DNA of 64,000 nt, taken from Limnovirga soli. Lineage in GTDB: Bacteria; Bacteroidota; Bacteroidia; Chitinophagales; Chitinophagaceae. This document shows positions 76 through 61,910 of the stretch, one piece after another. The notes below the pieces were generated by a model. The model was not told where the DNA came from. It worked only from the letters and a program-made list of their open reading frames with translations, and ran no database searches. A program made the translations under genes and the position numbers. Within the stretch, counting starts at the first letter, position 1, and each line of letters begins with the position of its first letter. The stretch lies in assembly GCF_013106755.1 (NCBI RefSeq), contig NZ_WHPF01000004.1, forward strand, positions 1 to 64,000, in the 5' to 3' direction.

Positions 76-95
76 CTTGCGTCGCACTCTTGTAC
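76..95 (+). repeat. Intergenic repeat core, class I (single)
   Basis: Exact 20-bp core CTTGCGTCGCACTCTTGTAC. A degenerate box (GCCCAAC) lies at 47-53, 22 nt upstream, matching the spacing seen in the other copies. It lies in the gene-free stretch left of the EF-Tu-like gene. Confidence 0.9.
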
Positions 96-2214: not shown

Positions 2215-2263
2215 GTACAAGTGAGTGACACAACCGGTGATGCCATGAAAAACAGCTGCTGGT
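2215..2263 (-). repeat. Diverged copy of the intergenic repeat
   Basis: Minus-strand core GTTGTGTCACTCACTTGTAC (2215-2234) differs from the class I core at four positions, all in the CTTGCGTCGCAC half. A box-like GCTGGT follows 23 nt away (2258-2263). It sits in the 364-bp gap before the FG-GAP gene; nothing else was recognised in that gap. Confidence 0.6.
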
Positions 2264-3650: not shown

Positions 3651-3721
3651 GGCCCGGCGATAGATTAATATGGCATCGCCGCTTGCGTCGCACTCTTGTG
3701 CGTTTAGATTGTTTATTGGGC
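3651..3721 (+). repeat. Intergenic repeat, class I (single, full-length)
   Basis: Box GCCCGGC at 3652-3658, 23-nt spacer, core CTTGCGTCGCACTCTTGTGC at 3682-3701. It lies between two convergent genes. The right flank (3702-3721) resembles that of the copy at 4980. Confidence 0.9.
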
Positions 3722-4979: not shown

Positions 4980-5029
4980 GTACAAGAGTGCGACGCAAGA
5001 GTAGCCAAATGTGTAGCCTGCAGCCGGGT
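4980..5029 (-). repeat. Intergenic repeat, class I (single)
   Basis: Minus-strand core CTTGCGTCGCACTCTTGTAC (4980-4999) with a GCCGGG box at 5023-5028. It sits in the 349-bp gap between divergent genes, upstream of the predicted promoter of the ThuA/sugar dehydrogenase gene; nothing else was recognised in the gap. Confidence 0.9.
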
Positions 5030-8464: not shown

Positions 8465-8474
8465 CAATGATGTA

Positions 8475-8610
8475 CCGGGCAGTTGAGGTACTATCAGCAT
8501 CCTTGCGTCGCACACTTGTACAGCAGAATAGCCATTAGCTAAAAGCCCATACAGTTATGCAGTACAAGTGTGCGACGCAAGTACAGTTGCCAAATAGTCA
8601 ACAGCCGGGC
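8475..8610. repeat. Paired intergenic repeat (class I, head-to-head palindrome)
   Basis: Forward core 8502-8521 and reverse core 8562-8581 are perfect 20-bp inverted complements, both with the A variant at the W position. Boxes CCGGGC (8475-8480) and GCCGGGC (8604-8610) lie 21 and 22 nt outside. As RNA this folds into a 20-bp stem with a 40-nt loop between two co-directional genes. Confidence 0.95.
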
Positions 8611-10381: not shown

Positions 10382-10710
10382 GCTGCCAAAAAAAAGCAGT
10401 TTAGATAAAGTAGTTGGCAATTTTAGGTAAAAGGCATTTTTGTGGGCCTGGCAATAGATTAAAATGGCATCGCCGCTTGCGTCGCACACTTGTGCTTTTG
10501 GTAATGCTGTGCAGCTTTTAATAAACTCAAAAATAGTTAATCGAAATAAAAAATTGTAGCACCAAAAAAATGGATTATTATTTTTATTGAATTAAATACA
10601 TTTTATCTCGTTATAAATTAAATGGCCTTTTGATTTTCGGATTAATTAACCCTAAAAATTCTTCCTAAGTAGGAATATCTTGCAACATAAATAAGAATAG
10701 GAAATTTTTA
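10382..10710. other. Gene-free gap with one repeat
   Basis: A 329-bp space between convergent genes. Apart from the intergenic repeat at 10446-10495 it is A+T-rich sequence in which I see no gene or clear terminator. Confidence 0.5.
10446..10495 (+). repeat. Intergenic repeat, class I (single)
   Basis: Box GCCTGGC 10446-10452, 23-nt spacer, core CTTGCGTCGCACACTTGTGC 10476-10495. The spacer is nearly the same as in the copy at 3682 (both include ATGGCATCGCCG). Confidence 0.9.
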
Positions 10711-12906: not shown

Positions 12907-12990
12907 TGCCCAGAACAGGAATCGAACCTGCACTACCTTGCGATAACCAGATTTTGAGTCTAGCGCGTCTACCAATTCCGCCATCTGGGC
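12907..12990 (-). tRNA. tRNA-Leu (CAA anticodon)
   Basis: An 84-nt tRNA on the minus strand. Acceptor stem GCCCAGA/TCTGGGC with discriminator A, a D-arm with AATTGGTAGACGC, an anticodon loop CTCAAAA (anticodon CAA, reading UUG), a long variable arm as expected for leucine, and a T-arm with GGTTCGATTCC. CCA is not encoded. It stands alone, followed by its own terminator. Confidence 0.95.
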
Positions 12991-17347: not shown

Positions 17348-17396
17348 GTACAAGAGTGCGACGCAAGTAATGCCCAATTAATAAGTTTTGCCGGGC
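17348..17396 (-). repeat. Intergenic repeat, class I (single)
   Basis: Minus-strand core CTTGCGTCGCACTCTTGTAC (17348-17367), 22-nt spacer, box GCCGGGC (17390-17396). It lies between two co-directional minus-strand genes. Confidence 0.93.
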
Positions 17397-20395: not shown

Positions 20396-20444
20396 CCGGG
20401 CCATGTGAGCTTTGTGCAGCTTTACTTGCGTCGCACTCTTGTAC
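20396..20444 (+). repeat. Intergenic repeat, class I (single)
   Basis: Box CCGGGC (20396-20401), 23-nt spacer, core CTTGCGTCGCACTCTTGTAC (20425-20444), followed by the right flank ATGGCAGCA (20454-20462). Confidence 0.93.
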
Positions 20445-22606: not shown

Positions 22607-22656
22607 ACCGGACTGTTTATTGTTAATTCAACTTTTCTTGCGTCGCACACTTGTAC
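22607..22656 (+). repeat. Intergenic repeat, class I (single)
   Basis: Degenerate box ACCGGAC (22607-22613), 23-nt spacer, core CTTGCGTCGCACACTTGTAC (22637-22656), right flank TGCAGTAATACTGCGCAGC as in several copies. Confidence 0.9.
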
Positions 22657-22717: not shown

Positions 22718-25700
22718 TTATTGGTTTGGGGTAATTATCACGCTGCTACTACTATTTCGGCCAAACAAAACAGGGAAATACATCAAAGAAGCTGTTGCCG
22801 GGTTAATTGTAAATTTACCTGCAAACCTGGTTTCTAATGGTATGCTAAACACATGTTTTCCTTTGCTTAAGTAGGGTATAAACATCACCACCTTATTTTT
22901 AAAAAACTCCTTGTGTATATTCCAGTCGTCTTGTGTTTTGGTGGTATATACACATCCGGCAGGTATGGGAATTTCCAGCATAACATACTCGGCCTCTTCC
23001 TTAACAAACATCGAAATTTCCATATTTACTTTTTCGCCACTTTGTAAGGTGCTAATGGTTTGTTTATTTTTTTCAAAATGACTTTCTATGCTAAAATGGG
23101 TAGTTACAGCAGCGGGTGCATTATTCCAATAATGCTGATAGATGCTTAAATAAGTTATGCCTCCACCAGTTTTTTTACATTGCCATTCTTTGGTAGCATC
23201 TAAACTAAACTGTGCAGGAAATTTACTAATAGTTATACTCGAATCGCCACTAATTTGAATAGAAGCTTTATCGGTAAATGAATTATTTTGCTGTAAAACA
23301 AATGGCAGTATTGCATTGGTAATGGCTGCGCTTTCTACTGTATTTCTCCAATAACCATTGGTTCGCTGCGAAAGAAAATATTGTATAATGGCAGGCAGCA
23401 TATGGGCAAAATCCTTTTCATTAGCCAATACTTTGTAGGCAACAATGGTAGTGGCTATATTATTATTATACCAATGATAATTATCGGTTCCCCAATGTAC
23501 ATCGCCCAATATACCATTAATTGCTTTAGCTGTTATCTGTTCTAAAATGGTGTTATGCGGTATTTGTAAGCTTTGCATCAAGCTTATATACTTCCACTGC
23601 TGGTATTGTGAAAGTGAATCATACTGTATTGTTTTAATCCATGGTGTATAATCCATTTGATGATTGGCAGCGGCCATAGTACAAAGTGAGGTAAGCAGTA
23701 CATCTTTATTAAATAAAGACAGGTTGTTTTGTAAAAACAATAACCCATTCCTGATATTGTTTTGTACCAGGGGATCTTTGTTTAACATAAGCAGCGCATT
23801 AATTACATAGTTGGTAATATAATAATCAGCCTTGCCGCCTCCCCACCAACTCCACCCGCCATCAAATAATTGTTCTTTTTGTATTTTTTGTATTAATTGT
23901 TCAATTTGTTTTTGATTATTTGAAGGCTTGTGCAGGTTTTCATTTATAGTTTGTTCCATTAACAGGCCCTGTAATTTGGAAGCTGTTTGTTCCATACAGA
24001 AATAAGGATATTCTTTTACATGAGCCAGTTCCTGTAACAATAGGTCAATACTGTTATTAGTAGCCGTTATATTCAATGTTGCAGCAGTAGTGTCACCGGT
24101 AAAACTAAATGCAGTATCTTTTATTAAAACCATAAAATTGCCTTTGTATTCTTCTGTTCCTTTTTTTAATACGGGTATGCTTTTTTCTTCCCCGTCAGTA
24201 AATCCGGTGCTTGTTTTTAAACTAAAAGATGTTTTTATGGTATCTGTATTGTCGGCAATAATATTGTAGGGCGTTATTATGGAAGATTGTGCTGCAATGT
24301 TTTTTTGGTCTGTACGATCCTGGTTTTTATTAGTATGGAAAATGGTATTGATGCCATAACTATCATTGGTATAATTAAATGCTTTGGTAATAATAGATGA
24401 TGAGTCTCCTTCTAATAAAAATGATGGCAAATTTTGTTGTGCCAGTAATGGCTTAAAGGATTTTATAAACAAAGTAGATTTACCTGTTCTTAATTTTTTA
24501 TCCATTGCCAATACATAAATATCCCATCCTGTGATGTTGTCAGGATATGTTACAGCAAATCCGGCTTTTCCATTTTTATCCGTTTCCAGTTCGGGTTCCC
24601 AAAAAGCATAATCCCGGAAAATGGTGCGTAAGGTTTTGTTTTTGGTAGCAATAAGTATTACCCCATTACTGGCACGTGAACCATAAATAGCGGTAGCTTC
24701 GGCTCCTTTTAGAACAGTGATATCGTTTAGCTGCTCAGGGCGTATAAAATCGGGTAATTGATCGTAAGCAATTCCATCAATAATGTATAATGGTGCATTT
24801 TCGCCGGTTATAGTGTTAGCGCCTCGTATACTAATCCTGTTACTGCCGCCAGGATTGCCATTCACCGTAACACCTGCCACTTTGCCTGCAAGCATATTAT
24901 TCGTAGCAAATGGAAAGGATAATTCTTTTTCTCTAATAGAAATTACAGATCCTGTTAGCTCTCTTTTTTTTGCCGTGCCATACCCTGTAACAACTACTTC
25001 CTGCAAATATTGAACTGACATGTCTAATACAGCATTTGCAGTAACTAAGCTTTGTTCGTTTAGGTTTATTTCAAGCTCTTTAGTGGTATATCCTACAGCA
25101 GATATTATTAAGGTGTATCTACTGTTCTTGAGGTGATTGATAGTATACATGCCATCCCCGCCAGTAACTGTTCCTGTAGAAGTGCCCTTTATCATAACAG
25201 TAACACCCGGAATAGGGTGCTTTCCCTTTTTATCAGTTATTTCTCCTGCTATCATAGCATTACCTGCCATAGCTTTTGGTAAATTGCTGATAACAGTATA
25301 AGCATCCTGTGCTGGTGTTTTTTCTGATATTTTTAAGAGATCCAGCTCCCTGCTAGTTTGCTCATTAATCAAATCATTTATTAATTTGTTTTCGGGTTCA
25401 AAAACTGCTTTTAATAAGTTTACACATAGTGTACTATTTGAATTAATGCTAATATTCCCTGCCTCAGCAACAAAGAAATGGTTGGTTACCAGCAGCAGTC
25501 GATACTTGCCTACCGGAATATGGTTGATTTTTTGGTAGCTACCATTATATACAATACTAGCGTGCATATCAATTCCCTGTAATACAAAATATTTTATTGA
25601 GCTATCTGCGCCTGTTTTAATATAAAGTGTGCCGCTGGCATTTGTCATATTAAGTGTTGCCGGGTTGGTAATTGTAAGATAAGGCACCATAATAGCAGGT

Positions 25701-28510
25701 GGGTAAGTTATAGTGGGCAAACCTGGTATTGTATCCCCCATAATCCATTCAGCCGCAATTGATGGTAGTTTTGTATCATTTTTTGTAATGCCAAATACTG
25801 GTTTCTTTTCTAGCCTTAATATTTGTTTGGATATATTATATTCATACCCCGGTTCAAAATTAAAATGCATATCAAATTTACCCGGTGCAAAAAAATGCAG
25901 ACTATCCCCTTTTGTAAAAGGGCCAATCAGGTGCCTTTCGTTTTTATAAAGCTTTACCAGGGAGGAGTTTTGCCATACATAACTATTATTATTAATACTA
26001 TTATTTTCCAGTTGAAGCATACAATGCTGCAGCAAATATTTTTCGTTGCTGGTTAGTGTATCGGGCATGCTAGTGGTATTGGTTTGTAATGGCAAATGCT
26101 CAATATCAAAAAACAGATCGTGTTTATAATTGGGTTGCAGGTAAATGCTGTCTATTTCTATATATTGATTTTTTAAACGAATGCCAATTTGGGTATATCC
26201 TTGTGGGCAGTTAAAGGCATATTTTCCCTGCTCCGATGCACCATTATAATACACCAGTTTTCTATTTACATAAAGCAGGTAAATTTCTTGTGGAATAGCA
26301 TTTTTTACAGCAAAAACACTAAGCTGTGGCAAAAATTCCCCAACAGGTATAGCTACATCCTGGTAGCCGTCTTTAGGTAATAATACCTTATAATAAAGTA
26401 AGCTGTCCAAACCTGCTTTATTTACCCAGCCTTCATGTTTTCCTAAGGCGTATTTTTCAGTAATATAAACATCATCCTGCTCATACGTGTCATAGTTTAT
26501 CATGGGCCTTAGTTTGTATTTATGCAGGTATGGTGGTTCGGGCACCCGAACATCCTTCTTTAACTGTGCATTGTAAGCTGCAGCAGTCAGGTTTACATGG
26601 GCCGCAGGCTTTCCTTTATAATCTTTTACGGCTATGTTTATGCTGTCTTTTTGCCCCGGATAAATGGTATTGTTGGTGTTTATTTGAATAGAAAGTAGTT
26701 TGTATAATAATGCAATATTTTGATTTTTTTCTACCTGGTCTCCATTCCACACATATTGCCATTTTACCTGGTACATTCGGTTTTTGTGAATGGGTTTAGC
26801 TAACCAATATATATATTCGGATACGCTTTTGCCAGTGGCAATAATTTTATTTCCGTCAAATACAGTATAGTTTACAGGAATTTTATTTGGGTTATGCAAT
26901 ACAAACCCAACAGAATCTTTTATGCTTATCCTGGTTAAACTAACTTCATAACCATTATCCAGGGTAAAATCAATAGAATCTTTCTTATTACCGTTCACCG
27001 TATGGTAAAACCGATATCCAGTAACAAAGGGATCTATTTTCATAGAAAAGGGATAGGTTATATTTATCCTTCTGCTGGTTTCGCCACTTAGCTCTACATA
27101 ACCTTCCCCTTGCTGGCTTTTGCCATTTTGCATATTGGTAGCAGTAACGCTATCCTTTTGTTGATTAATTACCAATTCATTGCTTTCAGGCTTATAAATA
27201 ATATTCTTTTCCTCCTCATGCATTTCATTATTGGCGTTTATAAACTGGCAATTGGCAACTAAACTTAAAGTTGCATGCGGCACCACATTGGCTGGTATCT
27301 TAATCACTGTTTCTTCAGTAGCACTTAATGTTGTACGAATGGTGTATACTGTATCTGGTACATAAACGCTGTCCTTACTAAAATCCAGTATGGAATAATT
27401 TAGTAAGCTAAACTGTATACTGCCATCTAAAACAGACAAACCATTGGCATCTTTTGCACTGGCAGTAAATTGTAAAGTATCATTACTATAATAAGTTTCT
27501 TTTGAGGCGTTTAAGCTATAAGTACTTATTTCATCCGGTATATAGTCTTCGGTTTTAAAACTATTGCGCAATACCTGTTTGCCTGCCTTGTTTCTAAAAA
27601 CAATATTGTAGCTAATATCATATGCCATTGTATCGTTTAAGGCAAATGCATAGTCATAGGCGCCGGCAGTCTTTGGGTTTAACTGGGTAAGTAATTGACT
27701 TTTATTGGTTCCCCGGTTATAGTATTCCAGGTATACATTTAGTGGTTGTTTAAAAGGGTGGTGATGTTTACTTACAATAAAGGCCTTAAAATGTACGGTA
27801 TCTGTAAGTTTATACTTGGGCTGGTTAAATAACATATAACCTGCTGAGCCGGCAAAATGCCTGGTCTTGTAATTATAACGCCTGCTTTTAAATAAACCCG
27901 ACACATATCTTGGGGCCCACAATATAGTGGTGCCAACCCTGGTTTTTCCAAAATTATTTAGTCTTTGCCCCAGTATGGTTTTGTCCAGCACTTCATCAGC
28001 ATAAAGGGTGGTAAAAATAGTATCTGTGGGGGTGTATACCTTTATATAAGCCTCATCTGGCTTGCGTTGTGGGATAAGGTAGTTGCCAGCTAATGGTTGG
28101 TATCTGGCCGCTTTCTTATTTACAAAAACACTCGCATTGTTTATAGATCCGCCATTTTTATCGCGTACTTCCAATTGTACCCGGTGCTGATTATTTACAG
28201 CATAAACAAACAAATCGCTGCGTCCAACAATCCATGCTGCCACCATATTATCCTGCACATTTATTAAAACATAGTGCCCCTTAGGTAATACCAATTCATC
28301 AATGCTATCAGTTGCAAACACATAAAACGGTTGCTCATCCAAAAAACGGTCTACTGGTATACCATCTTCATTCAAATATTTTTCGGCACTATCGGCGGCA
28401 ATTTTATAAGCAAAAGTAGACAAGCTTTTTTTCCTTAAGTCCTTTAAATTGGTTTGGGCCGCCATTACCATGGGGCAAACCATCAGCGCAATCAGGATAA
28501 TTTTTCTCAT
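22718..28510 (-). CDS. Giant alpha-2-macroglobulin-like protein with inserted carboxypeptidase-regulatory and TonB plug domains
   Basis: A 1930-residue exported protein. The ATG at 28510 starts a normal signal peptide (MRKIILIALMVCPMVMAAQ). The first ~1050 residues are macroglobulin-type MG domains (MLFNQPKYKLTDTVHFKAF, then SKETYYSNDTLQFTASAKD). A carboxypeptidase-regulatory-like domain follows, about 1080-1165 (IAGEITDKKGKHPIPGVTV, GDGMYTI), then a SusC-type TonB plug about 1165-1290 (EVVVTGYGTAKKRELTG, LAGKVAGV, ISIRGANTI, YIIDGI, TAIYGSRASNGVILI). After it comes the A2M core (FWEPELETDKNGKAGF) and a thioester-like C1505-M-E-Q in YPYFCMEQTASKL with GGWSWWGGG. There is no beta-barrel, so it is not a TonB receptor itself. 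A protease-trap or surface-defence role is inferred. Confidence 0.85.
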   Translation of the reverse strand: MRKIILIALMVCPMVMAAQTNLKDLRKKSLSTFAYKIAADSAEKYLNEDGIPVDRFLDEQPFYVFATDSIDELVLPKGHYVLINVQDNMVAAWIVGRSDLFVYAVNNQHRVQLEVRDKNGGSINNASVFVNKKAARYQPLAGNYLIPQRKPDEAYIKVYTPTDTIFTTLYADEVLDKTILGQRLNNFGKTRVGTTILWAPRYVSGLFKSRRYNYKTRHFAGSAGYMLFNQPKYKLTDTVHFKAFIVSKHHHPFKQPLNVYLEYYNRGTNKSQLLTQLNPKTAGAYDYAFALNDTMAYDISYNIVFRNKAGKQVLRNSFKTEDYIPDEISTYSLNASKETYYSNDTLQFTASAKDANGLSVLDGSIQFSLLNYSILDFSKDSVYVPDTVYTIRTTLSATEETVIKIPANVVPHATLSLVANCQFINANNEMHEEEKNIIYKPESNELVINQQKDSVTATNMQNGKSQQGEGYVELSGETSRRINITYPFSMKIDPFVTGYRFYHTVNGNKKDSIDFTLDNGYEVSLTRISIKDSVGFVLHNPNKIPVNYTVFDGNKIIATGKSVSEYIYWLAKPIHKNRMYQVKWQYVWNGDQVEKNQNIALLYKLLSIQINTNNTIYPGQKDSINIAVKDYKGKPAAHVNLTAAAYNAQLKKDVRVPEPPYLHKYKLRPMINYDTYEQDDVYITEKYALGKHEGWVNKAGLDSLLYYKVLLPKDGYQDVAIPVGEFLPQLSVFAVKNAIPQEIYLLYVNRKLVYYNGASEQGKYAFNCPQGYTQIGIRLKNQYIEIDSIYLQPNYKHDLFFDIEHLPLQTNTTSMPDTLTSNEKYLLQHCMLQLENNSINNNSYVWQNSSLVKLYKNERHLIGPFTKGDSLHFFAPGKFDMHFNFEPGYEYNISKQILRLEKKPVFGITKNDTKLPSIAAEWIMGDTIPGLPTITYPPAIMVPYLTITNPATLNMTNASGTLYIKTGADSSIKYFVLQGIDMHASIVYNGSYQKINHIPVGKYRLLLVTNHFFVAEAGNISINSNSTLCVNLLKAVFEPENKLINDLINEQTSRELDLLKISEKTPAQDAYTVISNLPKAMAGNAMIAGEITDKKGKHPIPGVTVMIKGTSTGTVTGGDGMYTINHLKNSRYTLIISAVGYTTKELEINLNEQSLVTANAVLDMSVQYLQEVVVTGYGTAKKRELTGSVISIREKELSFPFATNNMLAGKVAGVTVNGNPGGSNRISIRGANTITGENAPLYIIDGIAYDQLPDFIRPEQLNDITVLKGAEATAIYGSRASNGVILIATKNKTLRTIFRDYAFWEPELETDKNGKAGFAVTYPDNITGWDIYVLAMDKKLRTGKSTLFIKSFKPLLAQQNLPSFLLEGDSSSIITKAFNYTNDSYGINTIFHTNKNQDRTDQKNIAAQSSIITPYNIIADNTDTIKTSFSLKTSTGFTDGEEKSIPVLKKGTEEYKGNFMVLIKDTAFSFTGDTTAATLNITATNNSIDLLLQELAHVKEYPYFCMEQTASKLQGLLMEQTINENLHKPSNNQKQIEQLIQKIQKEQLFDGGWSWWGGGKADYYITNYVINALLMLNKDPLVQNNIRNGLLFLQNNLSLFNKDVLLTSLCTMAAANHQMDYTPWIKTIQYDSLSQYQQWKYISLMQSLQIPHNTILEQITAKAINGILGDVHWGTDNYHWYNNNIATTIVAYKVLANEKDFAHMLPAIIQYFLSQRTNGYWRNTVESAAITNAILPFVLQQNNSFTDKASIQISGDSSITISKFPAQFSLDATKEWQCKKTGGGITYLSIYQHYWNNAPAAVTTHFSIESHFEKNKQTISTLQSGEKVNMEISMFVKEEAEYVMLEIPIPAGCVYTTKTQDDWNIHKEFFKNKVVMFIPYLSKGKHVFSIPLETRFAGKFTINPATASLMYFPVLFGRNSSSSVIITPNQ

Positions 28511-28617
28511 AATAGTCTGGTATGCAATACAGATGCTGCTATTTACGCAATTACACAAGCCCATTATAATTTATTTATTAGCAGCATATTGGGTTATGCC
28601 TCTTTGCCCAATCCGCT

Positions 28618-28646: not shown

Positions 28647-28816
28647 GCCGGGCAGGGTGCCTATAGCAGCTTTACTTGCGTCGCACTCTTGTACGGAAGA
28701 ATATATGGGGGCAAAGTCTGGCGGAAAAACTGCCTTTGATTTATGGAAGCTGCGGCAGGTTTCAACAGTACAAGAGTGCGACGCAAGCGGCGATGCCACA
28801 CGTATTTTAGCCGGGC
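28647..28816. repeat. Paired intergenic repeat (class I, head-to-head palindrome)
   Basis: Box GCCGGGC (28647-28653), 21-nt spacer, core 28675-28694; reverse core 28768-28787, 22-nt spacer, box GCCGGGC (28810-28816). The two cores are perfect 20-bp inverted complements, both with the T variant at W. It lies between divergent genes. Confidence 0.95.
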
Positions 28817-30714: not shown

Positions 30715-30917
30715 GCCGGGCAGATGAGCATGCCCTGGCTTTACTTGCGTCGCACACTTGTGCAGCAGTAATTTTACGCAGCTTTTATTGCATAAATAAA
30801 TTAAAGAGACCCGTTTTATCACGGGTCTTTTTTTATGTCAAACCTTATATGCTGCCATACAGGCAACCGTACAAGAGTGCGACGCAAGTAATGTTGCCCA
30901 TAGCTGCTATGCCGGGC
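30715..30917. repeat. Paired intergenic repeat (class I) enclosing a terminator
   Basis: Box GCCGGGC (30715-30721), 22-nt spacer, core CTTGCGTCGCACACTTGTGC (30744-30763); reverse core 30869-30888 (T variant), 22-nt spacer, box GCCGGGC (30911-30917). The two halves are not exact complements. The aspS terminator lies between them. Confidence 0.93.
30804..30836 (+). terminator. Terminator of aspS
   Basis: Stem AGACCCGT (30807-30814)/ACGGGTCT (30821-30828), 6-nt loop, then a run of seven Ts. Confidence 0.88.
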
Positions 30918-35689: not shown

Positions 35690-35705
35690 TAACAGGCATT
35701 ATTTA

Positions 35706-35854
35706 CCCGGCTGCAAAACAATTGGCATCACCACTTGCGTCGCACACTTGTACTGTGAAGCATTGTGCAACTAATATGAATTTTTTGATGCCATGAAAAC
35801 AGAACGATGAACCGAGCGTGGCAAGTAAAGCCTAATAGATATTTAAAAGCTGGC
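35706..35854. repeat. Paired intergenic repeat, class I plus class II
   Basis: Box CCCGGC (35706-35711), 22-nt spacer, class I core CTTGCGTCGCACACTTGTAC (35734-35753). Facing it is a class II core on the minus strand (CTTGCCACGCTCGGTT, 35810-35825), a 23-nt spacer and a degenerate box GCTGGC (35849-35854). A mixed pair with the standard outward geometry. Confidence 0.85.
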
Positions 35855-39939: not shown

Positions 39940-39984
39940 GCCCGGCAAATTAACCTTGGGCAACTGTACTTGCGTCGCACACTT
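39940..39984 (+). repeat. Intergenic repeat, class I with altered end
   Basis: Box GCCCGGC (39940-39946), 22-nt spacer, core CTTGCGTCGCACACTT (39969-39984), after which GTAC is replaced by CAGGG. Same subtype as the copy at 51965. The 357-bp gap otherwise holds the terminator at 39872 and no gene. Confidence 0.88.
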
Positions 39985-40083
39985 CAGGGTTCCTCATTTA
40001 TGGCAACTAATCCGCTTTGTTCAATGAAACCACTGGTTCAAAAACGGGTAATAACTAAATGGAAAGGTTTTATAAGCAATAAC

Positions 40084-41896: not shown

Positions 41897-41945
41897 GTAC
41901 AAGTGTGCGACGCAACGGCTGCTGCACAAAGCTTCAACAGCCCGG
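41897..41945 (-). repeat. Intergenic repeat, class I (single)
   Basis: Minus-strand core GTTGCGTCGCACACTTGTAC (41897-41916; first base changed), 23-nt spacer, box GCCCGG (41940-41945). Confidence 0.9.
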
Positions 41946-44559: not shown

Positions 44560-44608
44560 GCCCGGCTTACACGTAAAATGCAGCATTACTTGCGTCGCAC
44601 ACTTGTAC
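44560..44608 (+). repeat. Intergenic repeat, class I (single)
   Basis: Box GCCCGGC (44560-44566), 22-nt spacer, core CTTGCGTCGCACACTTGTAC (44589-44608). Confidence 0.93.
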
Positions 44609-46311: not shown

Positions 46312-46360
46312 GTACAAGTGTGCGACGCAAGGATGCCAAATTTATAATCTGATGTTGGGT
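46312..46360 (-). repeat. Intergenic repeat, class I (single)
   Basis: Minus-strand core CTTGCGTCGCACACTTGTAC (46312-46331), 22-nt spacer, degenerate box GTTGGGT (46354-46360). Between convergent genes. Confidence 0.9.
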
Positions 46361-48876: not shown

Positions 48877-48925
48877 GCCAGGCAGTTTAATTGCTATTTA
48901 GCCCGGTTGCGTCGCACACTTGTAC
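48877..48925 (+). repeat. Intergenic repeat, class I (single)
   Basis: Box GCCAGGC (48877-48883), 22-nt spacer, core GTTGCGTCGCACACTTGTAC (48906-48925; first base changed). A second GCCCGG abuts the core. Confidence 0.9.
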
Positions 48926-50428: not shown

Positions 50429-50510
50429 TATTATTTATTTGTGTTGCAAATATGCCGGTTTATAATGATATTTCCGGCTGTTTTACTGCTGCCATATAAG
50501 TGGAACCATG

Positions 50511-50554
50511 AACCGAGCGTGGCAAGGGCCGATGCCATAAGTACCTACAGCCGG
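50511..50554 (-). repeat. Intergenic repeat, class II (alternate core)
   Basis: Minus-strand core CTTGCCACGCTCGGTT (50511-50526), 23-nt spacer containing TATGGCATCGG, box GCCGG (50550-50554). Only the CTTGC end is shared with class I. Confidence 0.85.
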
Positions 50555-51933: not shown

Positions 51934-51980
51934 GCCCGGCTTTGGGATGCCTATTTGGGCATCCGTTGCGTCGCACACTT
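51934..51980 (+). repeat. Intergenic repeat, class I with altered end
   Basis: Box GCCCGGC (51934-51940), 24-nt spacer holding an inverted repeat (GGATGCC/GGCATCC), core GTTGCGTCGCACACTT (51965-51980), then CAGGG instead of GTAC, as at 39969. Confidence 0.88.
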
Positions 51981-52021
51981 CAGGGCTTGGCCCATTGGGC
52001 AGCTAAACAGCCAACAACAAA

Positions 52022-54585: not shown

Positions 54586-54635
54586 GTACAAGTGTGCGAC
54601 GCAAGAGGTGCTGCCATAGAAATATTCAGTCGGGC
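54586..54635 (-). repeat. Intergenic repeat, class I (single)
   Basis: Minus-strand core CTTGCGTCGCACACTTGTAC (54586-54605), then a degenerate box (TCGGGC, 54630-54635) 24 nt away. Between convergent genes. Confidence 0.9.
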
Positions 54636-58713: not shown

Positions 58714-58733
58714 ATGTGCATGCAATTACTGTA

Positions 58734-59065
58734 CCCAGCCAAAAATCTATATGCAGCATCCGTTGCGTCGCACTCTTGTGCCGCAGTAATACTATGCAGC
58801 TATACCATTAAACAACCCGCTGGCAGCCTGTAAACATGGGGCCAATTGTATAGCTTTATTAAAAATCTCCTCTAAAATTAATTATGGGCTAAACCGAGTT
58901 TTTTTTGATTTTTAAATGATTGGATTAATATTGCATGGTTAGAGCGGGGATGCACATGCTGTTTTTTATGCTCAATTTCACATCATTTGTATGCCTGCCC
59001 ATCATAGTTCCGAAAGCTGAAGAGTGCGACGCAAGCGGCGTTGCACAGTAATACTAAAGCCCGGC
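58734..59065. repeat. Wide pair of intergenic repeats, class I
   Basis: Forward copy: degenerate box CCCAGCC (58734-58740), core GTTGCGTCGCACTCTTGTGC (58762-58781). Reverse copy: truncated core CTTGCGTCGCACTCT on the minus strand (59021-59035), 23-nt spacer, box GCCCGGC (59059-59065). The arms are 239 bp apart, and the sequence between has no gene. It fills most of the 374-bp gap before topA. Confidence 0.85.
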
Positions 59066-61750: not shown

Positions 61751-61755
61751 GAGTA

Positions 61756-61910
61756 GCCGGCAGTAGGTTGTTATGGCATCGGCACTTGCCACGCTCGGTT
61801 TAAGGTTCTGTTTTCATGGCAGCAGTAAATACATACGCGTAGCCGCCATATATTTCTACAGTACAAGAGTGCGACGCAACGGATGCTGCACATAGTAGGT
61901 AAGTTTGGCT
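61756..61910. repeat. Paired intergenic repeat, class II plus class I
   Basis: Forward class II: box GCCGGC (61756-61761), 23-nt spacer, core CTTGCCACGCTCGGTT (61785-61800). Reverse class I: core GTTGCGTCGCACTCTTGTAC on the minus strand (61861-61880), degenerate box near 61905-61910. Same outward geometry as the class I pairs. It occupies the 326-bp gap before the SirB1-like gene. Confidence 0.85.

Follow-up and report, generated by a model that had tools for sequence, protein, structure and literature searches.

What does it mean that the copies of a short repeat, wherever two of them lie close together, face one another in only one way? In the 64,000 nucleotides of Limnovirga soli analyzed here (contig NZ_WHPF01000004.1; "the window"), a sequence-only reading had pointed to six such places, with the forward copy on the left and the reverse copy on the right, and had suggested that the pair is a functional or mobile unit of which the single copies are half-units, as in the BIMEs made of REP elements, or that it folds into a long hairpin in RNA. 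All six pairs are present at their places in this arrangement (6/6, p=0.0002 under four equal arrangements; Table 1). Their positions and polarity stand, but they are not six pairs of one uniform repeat, since those at 35735 and 61785 each combine TTGCGTCGCACWCTTGTAC with CTTGCCACGCTCGGTTCA. Similarly, GTAC ends face inward and GCCSGGC boxes lie outermost in general, the exceptions being the right copy at 59016, which ends in ..CTTCAGC, and the boxes at 8474 (ACCGGGC) and ~61903 (degenerate). The sole oppositely arranged pair in the window (41897-/42145+) rests on a 4-mismatch chance match within a gene.

Table 1. Pairs and single halves of the repeat in the window
Feature	Position	Strand	Core(s)	Spacer	Remarks
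Pair 1	8474..8610		8503-8521 (+), 8562-8580 (-)	40 bp	boxes ACCGGGC 8474-8480, GCCGGGC 8604-8610
Pair 2	28647..28816		28676-28694 (+), 28768-28786 (-)	73 bp	divergent genes either side; directly downstream of promoter-like site TATCTTTG; position also occupied in both sister species, right core lost in one
Pair 3	30715..30917		30745-30763 (+), 30869-30887 (-)	105 bp	spacer contains terminator-like hairpin
Pair 4	35705..35854		type 1, 35735-35753 (+); type 2, 35807-35825 (-)	53 bp	
Pair 5	58733..59065		58763-58781 (+), ~59016-59034 (-, variant TTGCGTCGCACTCTTCAGC)	234 bp	
Pair 6	61755..61909		type 2, 61785-61803 (+); type 1, 61861-61879 (-)	57 bp	degenerate right box
Single half	77..95	+	type 1		
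Single half	2215..2233	-	type 3 (TTGTGTCACTCACTTGTAC)		
Single half	3683..3701	+	type 1		
Single half	4980..4998	-	type 1		
Single half	10477..10495	+	type 1		
Single half	17348..17366	-	type 1		
Single half	20426..20444	+	type 1		
Single half	22638..22656	+	type 1		
Single half	39970..39988	+	type 4 (TTGCGTCGCACACTTCAGG)		54 bp identical to C1:281103
Single half	41897..41915	-	type 1		'+ -' pair in both sister species (by eye)
Single half	44590..44608	+	type 1		
Single half	46312..46330	-	type 1		
Single half	48907..48925	+	type 1		
Single half	50508..50526	-	type 2		
Single half	51966..51984	+	3-mismatch variant		
Single half	54586..54604	-	type 1		

Alignment of the halves reveals one constant order: a T-run, the GCCSGGC box, 22-24 variable nt, a conserved core of 15-19 nt (TTGCGTCGCACWCTTGTAC) and a variable tail arm, whose terminus often lies near GGCAGC. 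Each half is a bipartite, non-palindromic element of ~80 bp, and its core, beginning TTGCGTCGCACWCTT.. after the 22-24 nt, occurs in several types (type 1, TTGCGTCGCACWCTTGTAC; type 2, CTTGCCACGCTCGGTTCA; type 3, TTGTGTCACTCACTTGTAC; type 4, TTGCGTCGCACACTTCAGG). Box and core are conserved while the arms are free to vary, at orthologous sites included, from which we infer that a sequence-specific protein may recognize the box together with the core. Boxes that point toward a gene start and boxes that point toward a gene end have an equally sharp T-run, which therefore looks like a part of the element rather than a chosen target. No long-range covariation or RNA structure is found within the half among 258 halves, whose folded consensus reaches only -0.3 kcal/mol. 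The repeats of the 64-kb window gave no match in Rfam, and a literature search found no description of this repeat.

The orientation rule extends to the whole genome. At up to 3 mismatches the core matches 867 forward and 845 reverse sites (1712 in 5.48 Mb), with 0 matches for the reversed core. In 864 kb of the same genome sampled for neighbors less than 250 bp apart, we count 72 '+-', 2 '-+', 0 '++' and 0 '--' pairs (p=7e-41 against 1/4); the four arrangements are far from equal, and with 72/74 '+-' the rule holds decisively. HMM copies combined with gene calls, which come from a simple home-made caller applied to drafts and metagenome bins, yield 76 '+-', 4 '-+', 1 '--' and 0 '++' among copies sharing an intergenic region of this genome. 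In the sister species, 188/238 such pairs are '+-', against 13 '-+', 17 '++' and 20 '--' (1.39 Mb), and in another genus 8/8 are (30 loci). Only 22 of the 378 HMM copies overlap called genes, so that the halves lie almost only between genes.

This polarity is not confined to pairs. Neighboring single-copy gaps carry opposite orientations in 109:35 cases in this genome (p=5e-10) and 187:44 in the sister species (p=4e-22), and the resulting alternation of single halves (+ - + -) runs across whole genes, with '+ gene -' and '- gene +' about equally frequent in this genome. Simulating strict alternation with 20-30% random loss of halves yields pairs, singles and alternation in main proportions close to those observed. 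The '+ ... -' arrangement behaves as a unit, as had been proposed, with a genome-wide polarity. Same-orientation neighbors are rare and similar in their arms, many deriving from tandem duplications; one run of such copies with very similar arms (G000:C1 393992-408688) probably belongs to a tandemly duplicated gene family. Replication-strand bias was rejected, since the apparent long single-orientation runs vanished in a fuller list of copies. That alternation arises solely from selection against direct repeats was set aside by reasoning, since such selection predicts too few pair-pair neighbors and leaves the excess of opposite singles unexplained.

Genes lying between tails also differ from those lying between boxes. 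In two genomes, tail-side genes have a lower GC content (0.382 vs 0.406, p=1.7e-7; 0.378 vs 0.405, p=6e-18), a difference that persists with length matching and one value per interval (p=7e-6 and 1.5e-19). They also have lower codon scores (p=1.5e-4 and 3e-8), are shorter in both genomes, and less often have homologs in the other of the two species (0.30 vs 0.47 and 0.23 vs 0.36). In Pfam scans, both sides contain ordinary genes; the sister species has two Y1 transposases, and both lie between tails. The repeats therefore seem to indicate the entry points of new DNA into the chromosome. We note two further intervals in the window: at 22718-28564, a 1948-codon gene and a single + half form an apparent insertion, the flanking genes being adjacent in both sister species, and at 12907-12990 a minus-strand tRNA gene lies within the interval '+ 10477 ... 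- 13759'.

The two members of a pair, in contrast to their fixed orientation, are independent in sequence. Core types agree in 34/65 partner arms (40 expected) and A/T positions in 15/32 (16 expected), and no correlation between partners is seen in either feature or in the sequence of the arms. An inverse duplication of halves was consequently rejected: two partners resemble each other no more than randomly chosen halves do, and likeness occurs only in same-orientation neighbors from tandem gene duplications. A coding origin of the reverse strand looks improbable as well, in view of its frequent stops (by eye). Beyond the tail arms, almost every one of 74 pairs has a spacer of its own, which argues against recent copying of the pair as one block; four pair spacers (G000:C1 106655, 112764, 468286 and 476110) have a minisatellite-like sequence in common, GGATGTGCGGATG with its complement. 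Nor do the singles look like defunct half-units, an intact core being as common among them (139/196) as among paired halves (111/160); in the sister species the singles are slightly better.

Comparison between species, at ~62% protein identity, separates the sites from their content. In syntenic gaps of two species, 17 halves share position and orientation, 14 are found in the sister only and 2 here only; the sites at 28676 and 41897 of the window exemplify the loss of a single half. Orthologous halves are, however, no more alike than random ones, and their core types differ, which together with the shared positions suggests that sites persist while their content is exchanged. The 54-bp identity between the half at 39970 and C1:281103 is the clearest such event, a recent exchange, copying or conversion. 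Across synteny breaks, box-facing halves tend to stay with their gene (37/46 vs 15/28, p=0.015). A concentration of the breaks themselves at occupied gaps was considered but is not claimed: occupancy in this genome shows it clearly, with 62 broken and 22 kept for occupied gaps and 11 and 17 for empty ones, but occupancy in the sister genome gives 65/43 vs 7/8, no clear effect.

The reading that we favor, and to which we give an even chance, is that inverted pairs colonized the gaps between transcription units long ago, that their halves were later exchanged or lost, and that newer genes lie between the tails. The founding unit would have been a MITE- or REPIN-like inverted pair with its boxes outward, and its spread through the inter-unit gaps of an ancestor would have bracketed each resident transcription unit as '- unit +'. 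Exchange of halves between sites would then have erased the similarity within pairs, which is how this reading accounts for the independence of partner types, and halves would have been lost singly. Between the tails, where no stop codon or promoter would be disturbed, new DNA could have entered in pieces ranging from a short spacer up to whole genes or other mobile elements; today's singles would then be survivors of a pair or else the left and right ends of a unit loaded in this way. This scenario explains polarity, alternation and compartments together. Against it, we caught no complete pair in the act of transposing, and different pairs do not share spacers; alternation between pairs and singles is weak (52:40 in this genome); genes of ordinary housekeeping function, a class II tRNA synthetase among them, also lie between tails; and box-away halves show some conservation too (p=0.08). 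Bacterial MITEs, such as the Correia elements of Neisseria, are likewise non-coding and intergenic with inverted terminal arms. The pairs described here differ from them in having no shared internal sequence, the minisatellite in four pairs apart, and interiors of up to whole genes; a parental transposon was not found here.

A less probable alternative is that independent half-elements insert in a polar manner, box flush to a gene end (e.g., past a T-run), so that two halves in one gap automatically come to lie tail to tail and the pair never is a unit. The uncorrelated partners and the unique spacers fit this well, as does the core start, found most often 40-50 nt past the stop codon on the box side. 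In addition, one lone half fills the argG-argC gap of a genome of another genus (G007; genes named by eye), whereas five related species have ~33-40 bp between the aligned coding parts; a half may hence insert alone, and this case, together with the lack of an observed pair transposition, keeps the independent-half model alive. In the argG-argC gap at L258 (G234) we also observe a degenerate copy, its core apparently split by ~50 nt. Under independent insertion, however, the orientations on the two sides of a gene should be unrelated, contrary to the alternation of singles, and the T-run, equally sharp at either gene end, looks like part of the element.

It is rather unlikely that the halves are host-selected protein-binding sites, serving chromosome organization, insulation of transcription units or DNA uptake, with polarity reflecting an oriented function. 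Several findings would suit such a role: core and box are conserved, at orthologous sites too, while the arms are free; single halves are no less intact than paired ones; position and orientation persist from one species to another; and 68% of convergent gaps are occupied. The survey of the family (Chitinophagaceae) speaks against it: the core occurs in 91/197 genomes in 1 to >2000 copies, and numbers differ strongly inside genera; a drop from >2000 copies to zero within the family, and in one genus from 145 to 0, is improbable for an essential site. A binding protein was not found. The core is also present on a few viral contigs (20 stretches), possibly prophage bins with host flanks. DNA uptake sequences (DUS/USS) likewise have a short conserved core in very many copies, often in inverted pairs near gene ends, but the repeat here is longer and bipartite, and few of its copies (22/378) overlap called genes. 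A further reading, a genome-wide boundary system in which a sequence-specific factor reads polar sites bracketing each resident transcription unit, protects the box side and steers DNA that arrives toward the tails, so that the chromosome would consist of addressable modules, is speculative and we consider it unlikely.

That the pairs are REP doublets mobilized in trans by a RAYT (Y1 tyrosine transposase), as in REPINs and BIMEs, is improbable. As in those systems (Bertels and Rainey 2011, PMC3116915; PMC2817692), hundreds to thousands of short extragenic repeats populate each genome, inverted doublets are over-represented (72/74 and 188/238), and singles and doublets coexist. In fact, exactly one REP-type Y1_Tnp gene exists in this genome, and it lies between a + and a - copy (L001:921-2067 on G000:C76; also L010), a REPtron-like locus inside a '+ ... 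-' unit. This gene is, however, surrounded by its own, different REPs (GCTCCGTAGGAGCAACCTGTTTATAG; GCTCCGTAGGAGCAACC..), with the equivalent TGCCCCGGAGGGGCAACC in the sister species, so that two species each have, within a '+ ... -' unit, a RAYT locus accompanied by REPs of its own. In most other copy-rich genomes the repeat does not flank the Y1 genes, one genome with 267 repeat copies has no Y1_Tnp, and no mobilizing enzyme for the repeat was found. Moreover, the half has no stem-loop and no cognate RAYT, spacers are unique, singles are not decayed, and alternation carries on across genes. CGTC- and GTAG-tagged REPs, of which CGTC-tagged families without transposase genes are reported in Bacteroidetes among others, have 8-9 bp stems with 4-5 nt loops and form tail-tail dimers with variable spacers, heterodimers being described (PMC3733652). 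CGTC is present here too, but inside a non-structured core (TTGCGTCGCAC) without an 8-9 bp stem. CGTC dimers are mostly head-head (PMC3733652); the pairs here are nearly all tail-tail under a naming of ends that is our own. On the features tested, membership among REPINs is therefore rejected: of the proposed likeness to BIMEs the layout stays, and the REP/RAYT system, with its stem-loop core and cognate transposase, does not.

Least probable, and already largely contradicted, is a role of the pair in RNA as a long hairpin, which the sequence-only reading had also offered and which would serve transcript ends or transcript stability: pairs of two type 1 cores can form a 19-20 bp stem and halves lie near stop codons, but arms are not kept complementary and agree only at chance level, which lends no support to a maintained RNA or cruciform hairpin, no covariation is seen within the half, pairs also occur between divergent genes, and such a role has no place for alternation across genes.

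In sum, the orientation of the copies splits the chromosome into box-side and tail-side compartments that differ in GC content, codon use and conservation. A REP-like layout can occur in thousands of copies with no recognizable REP stem-loop or RAYT gene, which turns the search for a mobilizing or binding protein into a concrete problem. If the reading as founding pairs is true, the repeats would record, with strand resolution, which genes were already there at the time of their spread and which arrived later.
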